From the IMG/VR virus record IMGVR_UViG_3300020172_005639, positions 56,523 through 120,522 of that record: DNA of 64,000 nucleotides; one strand, written 5' to 3'. Below, one piece after another: positions 11,606-58,229 of this stretch. Position 1 is the first letter of the stretch. The number at the start of each line of letters is the position of its first letter. Both the position numbers and the translations under genes were made by a program. The stretch comes from a virus. The notes below the pieces were generated by a model. That model was given only the letters and a program-made list of their open reading frames with translations. It was not told the origin of the DNA and did no database searches.

Positions 11606-12107
11606 GTCGGTTGAACTTGAGCTGGTCGCAGAGAGCGCAATACCGGACGCCCAGCCGGCCTCCGGCATCAGCCTAGCAGCACTTTTCGTTGCTGCCCTGA
11701 AAATGGAGCACCTCTGCACCAAGGAGTCAGGCATAGGGTTGAGTGCAGTTCAGGTCGGCATGCCCTGGGAAATATTCGTGGTGCGTCGAGGTTGCGGCAC
11801 GTCATCTGAACATTATGAGTATTACGTGGATTGCAGGTACTTCAGCCAGAGTCATGAAACAATCAAGTCCATAGAGGGATGCCTTTCGCTCAAAAGGGAC
11901 GGCAAGCCCCGAAGGTTTGAGGTTGAGAGGTACAAGCAAGTCAGCATCATAGGTAAAAGGCTGCTGATGGGTCCTGAAGGCTTACCGATATTGGAGGATG
12001 TGGATTTCAAGGAGGAGGGCCTGTACGGCATCGTCTTCCAGCACGAAATTGACCACAGCATGGGAATCCTCATCTCACAGATAGGCACAGAGTTAGAGGT
12101 CGCTTGA
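11595..12107 (+). CDS. def: Peptide deformylase
   Basis: 170 aa, GTG start. All three motifs are present: GIGLSAVQ (residues 46-53), EGCLS (94-98) and HEIDH (150-154), giving the Cys and two His metal ligands and the catalytic Glu. It removes the formyl group from the N-terminal methionine of new proteins. Phage deformylases are known from marine phages. It overlaps the ribbon-helix-helix gene and shares an operon with bS21, pointing to early control of translation and protein maturation. A 20-residue N-terminal extension precedes the usual first helix. Confidence 0.93.
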   Translation: MNIKSVELELVAESAIPDAQPASGISLAALFVAALKMEHLCTKESGIGLSAVQVGMPWEIFVVRRGCGTSSEHYEYYVDCRYFSQSHETIKSIEGCLSLKRDGKPRRFEVERYKQVSIIGKRLLMGPEGLPILEDVDFKEEGLYGIVFQHEIDHSMGILISQIGTELEVA

Positions 12108-18833: not shown

Positions 18834-19196
18834 ATGGCAAAGAGCAAGATTATCACCACCGATAACATACTGCCCCTGATCGGTTCAGACCCGGTCGTGT
18901 CGAGGGTGGTTGGGGTCAAGCCCTGCGGTTCGCAGGTGCTTGTCGAAATCCTTACACCACAGGAGATGATGGGCACGACCCTCGCAGTCGGCGACAAAGC
19001 CGACCTGAAGGTGCCGCTTCAGGGATACGTGAAGGCGGTCGGGCCGGGATTCAAGGGCGAGGACTACGGGTTCAAAGTCGGTGATCGCGTCTTGATCTCC
19101 GGCAGCGGCATCATGGCTCCAGAGTATGACGACTGCCACCGCACTCGTTTCTTTATGGAGCCACACGCAATCAAAAGCGTATTACTTGAGGAATGA
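18834..19196 (+). CDS. groES: GroES-type co-chaperonin
   Basis: 120 aa. The beta-barrel core is clear (VKPCGSQVLVEILTPQE, GYVKAVGPGFKG, FKVGDRVLISGSG), with a mobile-loop segment (MMGTTLAVGDKADLK) where GroES and T4 gp31 contact GroEL. The first 25 residues are an extension. It would cap host GroEL, perhaps to fold capsid protein as gp31 does. No GroEL is seen here. Its stop overlaps the dnaJ start (ATGA). Confidence 0.88.
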   Translation: MAKSKIITTDNILPLIGSDPVVSRVVGVKPCGSQVLVEILTPQEMMGTTLAVGDKADLKVPLQGYVKAVGPGFKGEDYGFKVGDRVLISGSGIMAPEYDDCHRTRFFMEPHAIKSVLLEE

Positions 19197-20263
19197 AACC
19201 AGACTACTACGCCGTTCTCGGGGTGAGCAAGGAGGCCACTCAGGACGAGATCACCAAGGCTTACCGCAAGGGAGCCAAGACTCACCATCCCGACGTCAAC
19301 CCAGGCGATCCCGAGGCGCCCAAGCGCTTTCAGGAGATTCAAGAAGCACACGATATCCTGTCCGACCAGAACAAGCGCGCGCAGTATGACGCTAGGTCGT
19401 CGGGTATGTTCTTCCGTAGGCGACCAGATGGTGATGGATCGCCATTCGGCAGCCCCTTCATGGACATGATGAGTGAGGTCTTGTCGCGCAAAAGCTTCAA
19501 AGGCAAGAACGCTCACGCAAAGGTCGATATCGACCTTCGGGATGTCATGTCGGGATGCACAAAGACCCTGGTTGTCAACGTCCGTACCAAATGCGATGAC
19601 TGCAAGGGCAGCGGGGTCGCAAGCACCCAGTCTTGCGACCAATGCCATGGCTCTGGTTTTTTGGTGGTGAACAACGCTCCATTCGAGTTTCGCCAGAATT
19701 GCTTCGGCTGCCAAGGCACTGGCAGGGTTAACCCCCAGCCATGCGAAGCGTGTCGAGGCATGGGGGCCAAGGGGGAACACGAAAGGTCGATCCAACTGCG
19801 AATTCCAGCCGGCATAGAAAGCGGCATGAGCATTCGCATTCATGGTCAGGGCGAGGAAAGCATCAACGATGGTTCGCTAGGCGATCTTATAGTTGCTGTG
19901 TCCGTGAAGCCCCACCCTGTTTTCACAAGAGATGGCGCAGACCTTCATATGGACGTCCCTGTGACCTACACACAGCTAGCGCTGGGGACCGACCTCCCAA
20001 TTTTGGGGTTGCATGGGGAAGAAATGGTCGTGAAAGTGCCATGCAGGGCCCCGTCCCATGCCAAACTCAAGCTCAAGGGCAGGGGTCTGGCCTTCCCAAA
20101 CGGCATCGTTGGCGACCTTTACGTCACGATCAAGCTCGAAACTCCCAAAGAGATTTCTGGAAGGCACGCCGAGCTTATCGCAGAGCTCTCTAGCATTGAG
20201 TCCACGCTTAAATTGCCGAGGCGTGAAGCATGGATAAAAAACATGGCAACTGTCAATACATAG
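19193..20263 (+). CDS. dnaJ: DnaJ chaperone, type A
   Basis: 356 aa. J-domain residues 1-65 carry HPD (32-34). Four CxxCxGxG zinc repeats follow (CDDCKGSG, CDQCHGSG, CFGCQGTG, CEACRGMG), then the substrate-binding C-terminal domains (IPAGIESGMSIRI, LKGRGLAFPNGIVGDLYV). The Gly/Phe linker is short and Arg-rich (about 70-90). It would stimulate host DnaK; no DnaK or GrpE is visible. Coupled to groES by a 4-nt overlap, so the two are co-expressed. Confidence 0.95.
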   Translation: MKPDYYAVLGVSKEATQDEITKAYRKGAKTHHPDVNPGDPEAPKRFQEIQEAHDILSDQNKRAQYDARSSGMFFRRRPDGDGSPFGSPFMDMMSEVLSRKSFKGKNAHAKVDIDLRDVMSGCTKTLVVNVRTKCDDCKGSGVASTQSCDQCHGSGFLVVNNAPFEFRQNCFGCQGTGRVNPQPCEACRGMGAKGEHERSIQLRIPAGIESGMSIRIHGQGEESINDGSLGDLIVAVSVKPHPVFTRDGADLHMDVPVTYTQLALGTDLPILGLHGEEMVVKVPCRAPSHAKLKLKGRGLAFPNGIVGDLYVTIKLETPKEISGRHAELIAELSSIESTLKLPRREAWIKNMATVNT

Positions 20264-35849: not shown

Positions 35850-35994
35850 GGCTTACTTGATCTGGGATCGCATTACCTTTTCCCAAAAGCTGGAGCTTTT
35901 GAGCCTAGCTCGGAGAGCTTGCCCAGAAAAAGTTGGCTATAGGACGATTGATGCTGAATGGAGGCCCTCTTTAGATGAGGAACCCAATCCATGA
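35836..35994 (+). CDS. 52-aa protein upstream of ClpS
   Basis: An ATG at 35836 opens a 52-codon frame (MSLSEAYLIWDRITFSQKLE onward, ending EWRPSLDEEPNP). It overlaps the 35589 gene by 14 nt and its stop overlaps the clpS ATG as ATGA. The continuous frame with tight junctions on both sides argues that it is real. Helical, no known motif; could assist ClpS. Confidence 0.65.
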   Translation: MSLSEAYLIWDRITFSQKLELLSLARRACPEKVGYRTIDAEWRPSLDEEPNP

Positions 35995-36299
35995 GTGCCG
36001 CCACGCTTGATAGCCCAGAAACAAAGACGATCACTCAGCGACCCTACAATGTTATCCTTCTGAATGACGACGACCACTCCGTCGTATATGTAGTCGACCT
36101 TTGCTTCAAGGTATTCCGCATGAGCGAGCAGGACGGGTTAAGGGTGGCGAATGAAGTGCACTTTTCCGGAAGGTCTATTGTTTACTCGGGCTCGCTTGAA
36201 GTGGCTGAACTCAAGCAAGAACAAGTTCACGGTTTCGGCCCTGACGCGCGCGTACCACGCTGCAAGGGCAGCATGACGGCAATCATAGAGCAGGCATGA
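35991..36299 (+). CDS. clpS: ClpS-type N-degron adaptor
   Basis: 102 aa. The ClpS fold is clear: RPYNVILLNDDDHSVVYVVD (about 17-36), the helix ending in ANEVHFSGRSIVYSG, and AELKQEQVHGFGPD. ClpS binds N-terminal destabilising residues and hands proteins to ClpA or ClpC. The final part (DARVPRCKGSMTAIIEQA) is longer than in E. coli. Phage ClpS could redirect host proteolysis; the phage also carries ClpX and a deformylase, which alters N-termini. Confidence 0.85.
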   Translation: MSAATLDSPETKTITQRPYNVILLNDDDHSVVYVVDLCFKVFRMSEQDGLRVANEVHFSGRSIVYSGSLEVAELKQEQVHGFGPDARVPRCKGSMTAIIEQA

Positions 36300-46242: not shown

Positions 46243-47079
46243 ATGCGTTATCTCAGTCTTTGCTCAGGTATTGAATGCGCCACTGTGGCGTGGCACAGAT
46301 TAGGCTGGACTCCGGTAGCTTTCTCGGAGATAGAGCCTTTTCCTTGTGCGGTCTTGCGACATCACTATCCGAACGTCCCCAATTGGGGGGACATGACCAA
46401 ATGGAGAGAATGGCCAGATGCAGAAATCGACCTCCTCGTCGGCGGGACGCCCTGCCAAAGTTTCTCGGTCGCCGGGCTCCGGAAGGGGCTCGAGGACGCC
46501 CGAGGAGGACTTATGCTTGACTTTGTTAACATCGCTCAACGTTACAAACCTAGATGGGTGCTTTGGGAAAACGTCCCCGGAGTTCTCACAAGCAACGGAG
46601 GAAGGGATTTTGGCACCCTCCTCGGGTCGCTGGCAAACATGGGGTATCAGTACGGATACAGGGTGCTGGACGCTCAGTGGGTCAGAACACAACAGTTTCC
46701 CGGTGCCGTCCCCCAACGAAGACGTCGTGTGTTCGTTGTCGGATATCTTGGAAGTGATAACCGTTCCGCAGAAGTACTATTTAACGGCGAGAGCCTGCGC
46801 AGGGATCCTACGGCGCGCCGCTGCTCGACAAAAAACCTTGCCCCCAATGCTGCACCAGGCGCTGTCGGCTGTGGCAGGCAATCTGGAGGCGGGCCAAGCG
46901 GAGACTGCGGAGGAGTTGGATCAGCAGACCCAGAACCCGATGGAGGACTGAGGTTTGCCTACGCAGTCTCGGGCAACGGCAAAGAGGACAGGGAACCCGA
47001 GGAAATCACGCCAACTCTTAAGGCTAGAATGGGGACAGGGGGGGGCAACGTCCCCCTGACCATGTATCAGCGAAAGTAA
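46243..47079 (+). CDS. C5-cytosine DNA methyltransferase, N-terminal catalytic part
   Basis: 278 aa with GGAAGG site. Motif I YLSLCSGIECATVAWH, motif IV GGTPCQSFS with catalytic Cys 71, motif VI WENVPGV (E109), motif VIII QRRRRVFVVG (148-157). After that the chain becomes repetitive (GGGPSGDCGGVG) and stops after EITPTLKARMGTGGG. Motifs IX and X are missing here and lie in the next two ORFs. A G8 tract at 47038-47045 near the end does not restore a fusion in either other frame. The enzyme would methylate cytosine at C5 in a site that cannot be read from sequence. Confidence 0.92.
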   Translation: MRYLSLCSGIECATVAWHRLGWTPVAFSEIEPFPCAVLRHHYPNVPNWGDMTKWREWPDAEIDLLVGGTPCQSFSVAGLRKGLEDARGGLMLDFVNIAQRYKPRWVLWENVPGVLTSNGGRDFGTLLGSLANMGYQYGYRVLDAQWVRTQQFPGAVPQRRRRVFVVGYLGSDNRSAEVLFNGESLRRDPTARRCSTKNLAPNAAPGAVGCGRQSGGGPSGDCGGVGSADPEPDGGLRFAYAVSGNGKEDREPEEITPTLKARMGTGGGNVPLTMYQRK

Positions 47080-47080
47080 A

Positions 47081-49480
47081 ATGACCGCACCCAACATCCG
47101 CCAGAACAAGAGCCACTGGGACGGTGAGGAGTATGCCCACCCAACCCTCTGTCAGTGTGCAAGCGGCAGCGGAGGCATCGGCATGAGCAACCAAGAGGTT
47201 TTCGGTCAAAGGGGCGGCTGCCTCGTCCCATGTCTGTCTTACGCATTTGAGCCCGGTATAATGCGGAGGAAGGGCGGTCACTACTGGGAGGAAGTCAGCG
47301 GCACGCTGAGGGCTTGCCCTGGCGACAACCAGATGGCTGTTGTCTGTTGTCCGGTAGTCGATGTCGCTGGAACTCTTTCTTGCAACACCGGCCCCAATGG
47401 CAACGATGCTGGCAACTTTGCTTGCAACCAAGCCGTGGATGCAGGCCACTTGGTTCCAGTTATCTTCGTGAAGTCTACCTCCCCCAGAAACAATCAGGAA
47501 GCGCCGACCTTTAGGGAGACGGAGGTGGCCTACACCATTAACACTTGGGACGAGAGGCACAACCCTCCCAAGCACATGGTGATCCAAGCAGAAGCTATCG
47601 CTTTTCAACTAAACGGCGATCGCGACTGCCCTGGCGTTTCTGTTTCTGCCGACACTGCCTTTTGCATCCCCGCCAACCCCATGTCCGACAGGGGTCAAGC
47701 CGTCGTCATCGCCATACAGGACGTCACTGGCAGGGACAAGAAGCAGAATGGCAAGGGCTTCAGCGAGGATGGCGTCAGCTACACGCTCGACGCAGCGGCA
47801 ACCCAGGGCGTAGCGATAGCCCAGGCAATTCCAAAACGAATTCCCAGCCTTGTCGGCATGATCAACATGCAGGGGTCCAAGGGCAACGCCGTAACGCAAG
47901 AGGACGGCCCGTCCTACACGCTCGCAGCCATGCACGGGCATGATGTCCATGCAGTCGTGTATCCCGTTTGCTTCCAGCAGAACACGCGCGATGAAGTCAG
48001 GCTCGTCAACGGCGATGGTCAGATAGCTGGCGCGCTGATGGCAGAGCCCGGCATGAAGCAGCAGAATTACGTCGCTGAGCCACAGATGAGTAACGTGGTT
48101 TGCTTCCGCCCCACCCAAGATCCTATATCCTCAATCGACGACTCAACCCACACGATGGGCACGGGGACTACTGGGGGCTATGCAACTGTTGCAGGGCCTC
48201 ATGAGGCGCCTTTTGGAGCGGGTGCGTCGGTTATATCCGTGGGCGCCGACTGCTACAACTGCTCCCTCACGGGCGATGTGGCCATGACACTAAAGGCTGG
48301 CCAGGGCAACCCAGCCGTCAACCAGCCGACCGTCATCCAGAAAAGGATGATTGGCACCGACATGTACAACGGGTCGATAACCGGTGATGTTGCCTGCACA
48401 ATGACTGCGCATGGGTCGAACCCGAGCTCCTCTGGCCCCACGGTGATGGAGGTTGTGACGCGACAGCTTTCGCTGGGAACCGACGTCTACAACGGCGCAA
48501 TAACTGGCGATGTGGCATGCACGATGACGGCGACTGGATCGAGCCCTAATGCCTCTGGTCCTACGGTGATGGAGATTGCTCCTGTCACCGTGCGCGAGAC
48601 GGGCTTCGTGAAGTGGATCGAAGACGACGTTTCAAACACGCTGCGCAGACGCGAAAACTCGGGCATTTTCGTCATCACCCTGCAGATAGACGGCCCCATC
48701 GGCAGTTTCCAGCAGAACAGCATGGATGGTCGTGGCAGTCTGGGTTTTGACGAAGACACCAAGGTAACAAGACCCGTCAAGCCGCAAGCCGATCACCAGA
48801 TGCTTGTTTACAGAGTGGACGAACAGCAGCACCCTGTGGTTTTTAGCTCTAACATGAGCGTTCCCGACTGCTGCACAACAGGCGTCAGCCCAACTTTAAA
48901 GCTTGGCGGCCATGGGGGAGGCAACCCCCCTGCCATAGCCATGCAAAGTGCTGAGTCAGTAGCTTACACGCTGCGAAGCGACGCAAACAGGGATGGCAAG
49001 GCCAAGACTCCCAGTCCCGACGCCGAGGGCAGAGTAAGGCTTCGCAACCCAGGCTTTAATTTCAATGAGGAGATAGCACCGACTATGGACGCAACCCAGC
49101 CGCATTCAGTTTCTTATGGAATGGTCGTGAGGAGGCTCACACCAATGGAGTGCGAGAGGCTTCAGGGATTCCCAGATAATTACACCGATATTGAGTATAG
49201 AGGAAAAACAGCTGCAGATGGACCGAGATATAAGTCCTTGGGAAACTCCATGGCTGTAAATTGCATGCAGTGGCTGGGCGAGCGGATACAGAGCGTGGAA
49301 AACGCGATTGGAAGCTCCCCCTGCCTCCCAGTCGACGTGACTGAAACGCCAGTCGCTTGCAGGGAGGTCAGCCCGACCCTAACGGCCAAGATGCAGGGAT
49401 CAAGCGGTTGGGCGCCCTACAATGAGGCTGATCACCTTACCCCTGTAGTCAAAGCAGAGAAGAAACCAAAGGCCAATTAA
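47081..49480 (+). CDS. C5-methyltransferase C-terminal part with long TL-repeat region
   Basis: 799 aa, ATG 1 nt after the upstream stop and in a different frame. Most of it is a chain of imperfect repeats with a core V(A/S)xTL or VACTM, then a variable Gly/Asn-rich loop and PxV; I count roughly 12. Three are near-identical tandem units of 37-41 aa starting at 48239, 48350 and 48473 (GTDxYNGxITGDVACTM). It ends with a motif IX-X module (RRLTPMECERLQGFPDNYTD, SLGNSMAVNCMQWLGERI, about 49129-49290), then one more repeat. Such repeat insertions are known in single-chain prophage methyltransferases. Here the chain is separate. Confidence 0.85.
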   Translation: MTAPNIRQNKSHWDGEEYAHPTLCQCASGSGGIGMSNQEVFGQRGGCLVPCLSYAFEPGIMRRKGGHYWEEVSGTLRACPGDNQMAVVCCPVVDVAGTLSCNTGPNGNDAGNFACNQAVDAGHLVPVIFVKSTSPRNNQEAPTFRETEVAYTINTWDERHNPPKHMVIQAEAIAFQLNGDRDCPGVSVSADTAFCIPANPMSDRGQAVVIAIQDVTGRDKKQNGKGFSEDGVSYTLDAAATQGVAIAQAIPKRIPSLVGMINMQGSKGNAVTQEDGPSYTLAAMHGHDVHAVVYPVCFQQNTRDEVRLVNGDGQIAGALMAEPGMKQQNYVAEPQMSNVVCFRPTQDPISSIDDSTHTMGTGTTGGYATVAGPHEAPFGAGASVISVGADCYNCSLTGDVAMTLKAGQGNPAVNQPTVIQKRMIGTDMYNGSITGDVACTMTAHGSNPSSSGPTVMEVVTRQLSLGTDVYNGAITGDVACTMTATGSSPNASGPTVMEIAPVTVRETGFVKWIEDDVSNTLRRRENSGIFVITLQIDGPIGSFQQNSMDGRGSLGFDEDTKVTRPVKPQADHQMLVYRVDEQQHPVVFSSNMSVPDCCTTGVSPTLKLGGHGGGNPPAIAMQSAESVAYTLRSDANRDGKAKTPSPDAEGRVRLRNPGFNFNEEIAPTMDATQPHSVSYGMVVRRLTPMECERLQGFPDNYTDIEYRGKTAADGPRYKSLGNSMAVNCMQWLGERIQSVENAIGSSPCLPVDVTETPVACREVSPTLTAKMQGSSGWAPYNEADHLTPVVKAEKKPKAN
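48239..48595 (+). repeat. Three tandem coding repeats (111 and 123 bp apart)
   Basis: Units start at 48239, 48350 and 48473, each encoding a version of (V/I/L)G(A/T)DxYNxxxTGDVA(M/C)T(L/M). The second and third differ by only a few residues, so they probably arose by recent duplication. Confidence 0.8.
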
Positions 49481-49482
49481 AC

Positions 49483-50136
49483 ATGGAGCCTGTGGCATTT
49501 ACTTGCAGCTCCCAGGCGAATAGCTACGCCTGGGAGCGTTGCTTTGCACCGACGCTTACTGCCCAGCAGCCGAGCGACAGTAGCAACCTTCAAATCGGCG
49601 TGAGGGACGGTCACAGCCTTCGCAGGTTTACGCCTCTTGAGTGCGAGAGGTTGCAAGGCTTTCCGGACGGCTATACCCTGATTCCCTACAAGGGCAGCTT
49701 GCCAAGCGACCAGCTTCGGCACAAGGCCCTAGGTAACAGCATGGCAGTAAATTCTATGGCTTGGTTAGGCGAACGAATTCGCAAGGCGGAGGCGCGCGTG
49801 GAATCCAGCGACTTGGTACTCATGGATCAGGGTGGCAGCATCATCAACGTAAACCTCGACGGAACTACGGGCACTCTCCGTCGCGAGATGCACGGTCATG
49901 AGCCGGTGATTATTTGCAAAGATGCAGAATGTTGTATGGCAGTTCGTAGGGTCACTCCGTTAGAATGCGAGCGGCTTCAGGGTTTCCCAGACGGACACAC
50001 GAACGTGCCTTTCAGGGGCAAGGCCGCCTCTGACAAGCCCAGGTATCAGTCCCTCGGGAATTCGATGGCCGTCAATTGCATGGCCTGGCTGGGCATGCGC
50101 ATTCAAGCCGTGGAGGATTCTTCCCGCACGGCCTAA
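49483..50136 (+). CDS. Two further C5-methyltransferase motif IX-X modules
   Basis: 217 aa, ATG 2 nt after the upstream stop. It contains two copies of the C-terminal methyltransferase module: RRFTPLECERLQGFPDGYTL with ALGNSMAVNSMAWLGERI (about 49621-49780), and RRVTPLECERLQGFPDGHTN with SLGNSMAVNCMAWLGMRI (about 49947-50105). Each is preceded by a TL-type repeat (FAPTLTAQQ; TTGTLRREM). No catalytic N-part is present. It could pair with the 46243 protein to give alternative enzymes, or bind DNA or the catalytic chain on its own. Confidence 0.85.
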   Translation: MEPVAFTCSSQANSYAWERCFAPTLTAQQPSDSSNLQIGVRDGHSLRRFTPLECERLQGFPDGYTLIPYKGSLPSDQLRHKALGNSMAVNSMAWLGERIRKAEARVESSDLVLMDQGGSIINVNLDGTTGTLRREMHGHEPVIICKDAECCMAVRRVTPLECERLQGFPDGHTNVPFRGKAASDKPRYQSLGNSMAVNCMAWLGMRIQAVEDSSRTA

Positions 50137-50153: not shown

Positions 50154-50387
50154 ATGCTGGTTGTCCAAAGGAAAATCAACGAATCCATCATGATCGGAGA
50201 TGACGTCCAGATTTTTGTGCTGGAGGTCACGAACGGGAAGGTAAGGATCGGCATCAAGGCCGATCGCTCGGTCCCAGTGCATCGGCGGGAATTGTACGAC
50301 CAAATCAAGAAGCTGGGTAACGACGACCCCAAGTCTGACGCCCTTGATCTCGAAAAAATAAGCAAGGTGATCGATCGTTATGACTGA
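50154..50387 (+). CDS. csrA: CsrA-type RNA-binding regulator (copy 1)
   Basis: 77 aa; ATG at 50154 with AAGGGAG site. MLVVQRKINESIMIGDDVQI, VRIGIKADRSVPVHRRELYD match CsrA with the RNA-contact Arg near 44-46. CsrA dimers bind GGA in hairpin loops and block ribosome sites. It ends in an acidic extension. Overlaps the SprT gene by 8 nt. Confidence 0.93.
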   Translation: MLVVQRKINESIMIGDDVQIFVLEVTNGKVRIGIKADRSVPVHRRELYDQIKKLGNDDPKSDALDLEKISKVIDRYD

Positions 50388-56996: not shown

Positions 56997-58229
56997 TTGG
57001 CTAGGAAAAAAACGCCTGTCTGTGATTTTTGCTCCAGAGGTGCAAGTTTGGCAGGCACTCTCATAGAGGGTCCTGCCCACAAGGGGAAGTCTTCGACTTC
57101 AAGGAGCTACATTTGCGCCGGCTGCGTGGCCCTGTGTCAGATGGTCTTGGAGGACAAGGAATCGCAGCACGTCCTTTTGCCGGGCATGGTGGTATCTCCC
57201 CGTATGATCGTGGAACACTTAGACAGATCGGTCATAGGGCAGGACAGGGCCAAGAGGATGCTTGCTGTGGCCGTGAGCAGCCACTACAAGAGGTTGCACA
57301 GCAAATCCGAAGGTTTCACCGACCCATACAGGGAAGTGAGGATTGAGAAGTCCAACATACTGATGATCGGACCAACTGGGTGCGGCAAGACTTGCCTCGC
57401 CAAAAGCCTTGCCGAAATCATGCAGGTGCCATTCTCAATCGGTGATGCGACGACGATCACAGAGGCCGGCTACGTGGGCGAGGACGTGGAGAACCTCGTT
57501 CTCAAGCTGCTTAGGGCCGCTGACATGAACGTCGCCAAGGCCCAGACGGGCATCATCTTCGTGGATGAGATAGACAAGATAGCCAAGAAGACACAGGGAG
57601 TCAGCCTCACGCGCGACGTTTCCGGCGAGGGCGTTCAGCAGGCTCTGCTGAAGATTCTTGAAGGCACAAATTGCAATGTGCCTCCACAGGGCGGCAGAAA
57701 GCACCCGGAGCAGCAATACATCCAGATCGACACCACCGATATACTCTTTGTCTGCGGAGGAGCGTTTGTGGGCCTCGACGAAATTGTACAGAGGAGGCTC
57801 GGGGCTTCTCGCATGGGATTCAGGAACGATCCCTCTCCCTCAGAGATAAGCATAGAGATGGTTACATCGGAGGACCTTATAGAGTTTGGTTTCATCCCCG
57901 AATTCGTAGGTCGTCTACCTGTGCACGCCACTCTCAAAGACCTCGATGAGACTACCCTCTTTTCCATTCTGACAGAGCCAACCAGTTCAATAGTCAAGCA
58001 GTACAAGAAGATTTGCATGATGGATGGCGTGGCACTGGACTTTACTGAAGGCGCACTGAAGCTCATTGCAAAGAAGGCGAAAGAGACTAAGATGGGGGCT
58101 AGGAGCCTCCGCAGCATCATGGAGGGCTTCATGACCGACATCTTATTCAATTGCCCCGATAAAGCAGGGAGTTCAATAGTTGTCGACGAGGCAATAGTTC
58201 ATGGCGAACCAGCGAGGTTCATCGCATAG
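56997..58229 (+). CDS. clpX: ClpX unfoldase
   Basis: 410 aa, TTG start with GAGGTG site. N-terminal zinc domain (C9, C12, C40, C43), Walker A GPTGCGKT (125-132), Walker B IIFVDEID (D190, E191), pore loop GYVGED (158-163), RKH loop in GGRKHPEQQ, an MGF in place of IGF for ClpP docking (about 265), sensor and C-domain ([13 protein letters not shown]). It unfolds proteins for ClpP. A phage copy could change substrate choice. Stop is followed in the same frame by the phosphoesterase. Confidence 0.95.

Follow-up and report, generated by a model that had tools for sequence, protein, structure and literature searches.

A split C5-methyltransferase locus with an unusually long array of putative target-recognition domains and a tripled C-terminal half in a viral genome

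What might a virus do with one catalytic half of a C5-cytosine DNA methyltransferase and three copies of the C-terminal half? The question arises from a locus in the window (the 64-kb stretch of DNA analysed here), which is the terminal part of a 120.5-kb virus record. Three co-directional ORFs are found at 46243-50136, and the motif set of C5-cytosine DNA methyltransferases (I-VIII with Pro-Cys, IX and X) is complete across them. An initial annotation described a catalytic ORF with motifs I-VIII and catalytic Cys71 that ends before motif IX, followed by three IX-X modules (one in ORF2 and two in ORF3), and PF00145 matches bear this out. It overlooked a tandem array at ORF2 residues about 8-672, detected with a unit profile, and placed the end of ORF2 at motifs IX-X, where in fact motif X is followed by a further array unit (residues about 750-790). 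The array consists of a tandem unit of about 36 aa with a D-V-x-x-T-L core, from which most of ORF2 is built, and its units are best read, from their sequence, as target-recognition domains (TRDs). The features of the locus are as follows.

46243..47079, + strand: ORF1, 278 aa, catalytic half plus terminal putative TRD unit (PF00145 1-168, E 5.9e-40; unit profile match)
about 46948-47073, + strand: complete putative TRD unit closing ORF1 (unit profile match)
47081..49480, + strand: ORF2, 799 aa, 16 tandem putative TRD units, then motifs IX-X, then 1 further unit
47102..49096, + strand: ORF2 array of 16 profile-scored putative TRD units (residues about 8-672; unit profile)
49112..49291, + strand: IX-X module copy 1, ORF2 residues 678-737 (PF00145 270-323)
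49328..49450, + strand: putative TRD unit past motif X, ORF2 residues about 750-790 (unit profile score 19.0)
49483..50136, + strand: ORF3, 217 aa, putative TRD unit, IX-X copy 2, putative TRD unit, IX-X copy 3
49618..49797, + strand: IX-X module copy 2, ORF3 residues 46-105 (PF00145)
49939..50118, + strand: IX-X module copy 3, ORF3 residues 153-212 (PF00145)

Motifs I-VIII occupy residues about 1-175 of ORF1, with Cys71 within GGTPCQS, and the PF00145 matches in ORF3 are two separate C-terminal stretches. The three IX-X copies share 63-71% protein identity. We identified no PF00145 match beyond this locus anywhere in the 120.5-kb record, and no match in the record to the DNA methyltransferase families PF01555 and PF02086. 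The record is possibly incomplete, and a second catalytic half may be encoded elsewhere in the virus. Directly downstream of ORF3 is a gene for a CsrA-family global regulator (window 50154-50384; PF02599, E 3.5e-22). Host-like genes of the phage encode peptide deformylase, a Cpn10-like protein, DnaJ, ClpS and a ClpX-like AAA protein (window 11703-12107, 18834-20263, 35991-36299 and 57141-58229).

Layouts were compared across about 170 relatives from viral and genome contigs, including some near-duplicates; these were gathered with this locus as the query, and the counts therefore cannot be taken as an unbiased census. The layout differs from the usual single chain, as initially noted, given that in 132 of the relatives a single chain has one catalytic half and one IX-X. 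Three IX-X copies beside one catalytic half are found only in the window and in two other contigs, L005 and L006. Twelve relatives have two ORFs with one half apiece, some of which may be frameshifts or unrelated neighbours. Clean examples include L131 (5000-6255), where the catalytic half plus units is followed by a 97-aa ORF with its own ATG that carries IX-X, and L186 (4812-6309), where a small ORF, also with its own ATG, carries units plus IX-X. These two splits are independent, and natural splits recur among these relatives. Single ORFs with two IX-X matches, in the cases examined, have one module with an insert (in L024:5995-7695, L041:3-1229 and L155:5005-6807, otherwise ordinary relatives, it separates motif IX from motif X by roughly 25-200 aa). 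Two long-array methyltransferases from different metagenomes (L159:5128-7329 and L158:2-2056) both have a TAG codon in frame just inside motif IX, preceded by an insert that resembles no TRD unit; possible readings are a stop that is suppressed, an intron-like insert and a dead gene.

The locus in L005, an independent contig, is identical in sequence to the window, layout included. L006 is from another metagenome and is about 90% identical at the DNA level, with all three ORFs intact. In both the window and L006 the ORF2 ATG lies 1 nt past the ORF1 stop (TAA in the window, TGA in L006), and the ORF2/ORF3 junction is TAA, 2 nt, ATG. Both breaks coincide with unit boundaries. A strong ribosome-binding sequence (GGAAGG) is present upstream of the ORF1 ATG. 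ORF2 and ORF3 start 1-2 nt past stops and lack a strong ribosome site, and thus their translation would probably occur by termination-reinitiation.

Comparison with L006 yields dN/dS values of 0.11 for ORF1, 0.077 for ORF2 and 0.083 for ORF3, and of 0.046, 0.088 and 0.047 for IX-X copies 1, 2 and 3, respectively. Purifying selection (dN/dS 0.05-0.11) acts on every IX-X copy as well as on ORF1 and the array; the loosest part is the short ORF2 tail (0.29), and amino-acid differences are concentrated in inter-unit linkers. In a tree of 138 IX-X modules (58 columns, which leave the deeper placement of the copies without resolution), every window copy groups with its own L006 ortholog. Thus, the three copies predate the split between the window and L006. 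Fourfold sites differ at 8/97 in the catalytic core and 22/99 in ORF3, and at about half of the sites in ORF2 residues 1-390 and 500-600. This sharp mosaic of synonymous divergence within one gene (window 47081-49480 versus L006:6806-9199), with about half of the sites differing in parts of the array versus 8% in the adjacent core, suggests block exchange of TRD segments by recombination, with the encoded units still under selection.

The unit profile is ungapped, with 22 columns and a shuffle control, and was trained with the Bacillus enzymes excluded; it was used in place of an earlier automatic HMM that drifted and fused adjacent units. It identifies 20 units in the window: one in ORF1, 16 plus one in ORF2, and two in ORF3 (scores 15.6 and 15.7). 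Residues about 535-580 of ORF2 resemble a further unit and fall below profile scoring. Scanning of 115 variable regions gave 537 units versus 26 in shuffled sequence, and unit count tracks variable-region length (r = 0.95, slope 36 aa). Within the set examined, the longest array besides that of the window has 14 units (single chain L012). The units are strongly selected, yet highly diverse among themselves. Other enzymes contain 17 of the 20 window units in shuffled order (27 ordered pairs the same as in the window, 50 inverted), and the ORF2 unit after motif X is 73% identical to a unit of L089. A search of cultured phages with the stretch u07-u09 returned a single weak match.

Several lines of evidence point to a role of the units in target recognition. 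The 16 ORF2 units lie in tandem ahead of motif IX, between motifs VIII and IX, and tandem TRDs are established for Bacillus phage enzymes (PMC8936443). The HhaI and phi3T enzymes were both left out of profile training. The HhaI recognition segment (GERIYSTRGIAITLSAYGGG) aligns with the unit adjoining motif IX, a moderate match whose profile score was equalled in 38/2000 shuffles in one run and 17/1000 in another. The phi3T multispecific methyltransferase, which targets GGCC and GCNGC (PMC4985741), has exactly two profile matches, in its variable region: KRVYSPEGLSPTLTTMGGG, with 0/1000 shuffles scoring as high, and GRRFKENGEPAFTVNTIDRHGV, a moderate match (12/1000). The other phi3T enzyme has one (1/1000). 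The unit profile, which is short and diverse, found no significant match among PDB sequences. AlphaFold models of two single-chain relatives have array pLDDT below 50; Foldseek places HhaI and HaeIII on top for these models via the conserved parts. The TRD identification draws on sequence because AlphaFold left the array without a confident fold. Part of the units may be inactive.

The locus shares features with four groups of known enzymes. Those of Bacillus phages (phi3T, SPR, H2 and phiBssHII) also have tandem TRDs between motifs VIII and IX (PMC8936443), and the two profile units of the phi3T enzyme parallel its two targets (PMC4985741). However, they are single chains with a few TRDs and one IX-X, unlike the window, where about 20 units are spread over three ORFs, some of them past motif X, and IX-X is present in three copies. 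In M.AquI, motifs I-VIII and IX-X are on separate polypeptides with the break in the variable region (PMC3404938); here too the two sets are encoded by separate genes and the cut lies in the variable region, an arrangement conserved in L006. In contrast, M.AquI and M.EcoHK31I have one small subunit per large subunit, one target and no TRD array, and the virus record has three IX-X copies per catalytic half. The closest catalytic halves are those of single-chain phage and prophage relatives (L007, L008-L012 and L079; PHROG 116; PADLOC oMTase PDLC03715), which have single units in common with the window at about 50-90% identity in different orders (PDLC03715 can be aligned to the ORF2 array). 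They differ in being one chain with one IX-X and, in the set examined, 14 units or fewer. HhaI and HaeIII, the best fold matches of the relatives' models, differ in having one chain, one TRD and one target.

The locus is conserved and modular, and all of its parts are under selection. We consider it fairly probable that the three genes encode one phage C5-methyltransferase, split as in M.AquI, assembling in trans and multispecific, for evasion of restriction. ORF1 would provide the SAM-binding, catalytic large domain (motifs I-VIII) and, by analogy, be the large chain; ORF2 and ORF3 would provide C-terminal halves, each consisting of one or more TRDs, motif IX and motif X, whose unit-IX-X modules are small-subunit-like. 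These halves may join ORF1 in trans like the small subunit of M.AquI. The two chains of a C5-methyltransferase severed in its variable region reassemble, both naturally (M.AquI and M.EcoHK31I) and in the laboratory, and complementing fragments are known for HhaI, BspRI, BsuRI and SssI (PMC3404938). Motifs IX-X would serve as scaffold and close the fold, and the approximately twenty 36-aa TRD units, traded and shuffled among phages, would recognize one target each. The activity of single units, and thus the number of working specificities, is predicted from their likeness to known TRDs. The assembled enzyme would methylate several short sequences, and its likely role is to keep several restriction enzymes of the host from cutting phage DNA. 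The earlier proposal of one trans-assembled enzyme with several specificities is the best-supported reading, with the assembly itself argued from analogy; its attribution of the specificities is revised, as their source would mainly be the about 20 TRD units (17 in ORF2) and not the IX-X modules as such.

Other explanations must be weighed against this split, multispecific enzyme. There is a very slim chance that ORF1 and ORF2 (and ORF3) are truly one chain, via sequencing error or programmed frameshifting; the reading frames are directly adjacent, and there is a G-run near 47034-47043. However, the G-run is broken up in L006, the stop persists through the change from TAA to TGA, ORF2 and ORF3 have their own ATGs placed at unit boundaries, and a fusion would still leave three IX-X copies. 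The initial annotation had allowed for a frameshift or assembly error, and this is rejected on the layout in two other metagenome contigs (identical in L005, intact in the diverged L006) together with the stop change. It had also offered the extra IX-X modules as remnants of duplicated or fused enzymes missing their catalytic halves, which would account for tandem IX-X copies without such halves. This is hardly credible, as frames are intact in the window and L006, motifs are complete, per-copy dN/dS is 0.05-0.09 with no relaxation of selection, and all three copies, already present before the phages split, have been retained. The low dN/dS and the layout kept in other contigs therefore indicate neither decaying remnants nor assembly errors.

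A structural or protein-binding repeat in an enzyme with one specificity, in place of TRDs, would be compatible with the array's lack of a confident AlphaFold fold and with the PDB result. We give this little credence, as the array sits between motifs VIII and IX, the held-out matches fall on the two tandem TRDs of phi3T and the HhaI recognition segment, and the units are strongly selected and diverse from one another. More plausible, and still unlikely, is a working enzyme of ORF1 plus ORF2 only, with ORF3 a spare cassette that itself contributes little, having arisen as a by-product when TRD shuffling dragged IX-X along. A single IX-X suffices in relatives, ORF3 has just two units, and one small subunit suffices for M.AquI (PMC3404938). 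Against this, ORF3 has a low dN/dS, both its IX-X copies and both its units are conserved, and all three IX-X copies antedate the split from L006.

If the three genes do form a split, multispecific enzyme, it is possible, at a tentative level, that its subunits are exchanged: the shared catalytic subunit would alternate among three C-terminal halves, with about twenty TRD cassettes and ten or more specificities. Such an enzyme would be the C5 counterpart of HsdM/HsdS exchange.

A few Bacillus phages are known to have multispecific C5-methyltransferases, each with a handful of TRDs. To our knowledge, all described phage examples are single polypeptides with one IX-X, and in the limited open-access literature we found no prior description of a split enzyme combined with a long array and a tripled C-terminal half. 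The locus and its relatives suggest that environmental phages trade in a large repertoire of TRD cassettes of about 36 aa, with up to about 20 of them in one locus, and that a split of the enzyme can let one catalytic half serve several recognition halves. If true, this would account for the way in which a single cluster of phage genes could evade many restriction systems. The arrays would also offer a natural library for decoding specificity from TRD sequence, of use in building 5mC writers with chosen targets.
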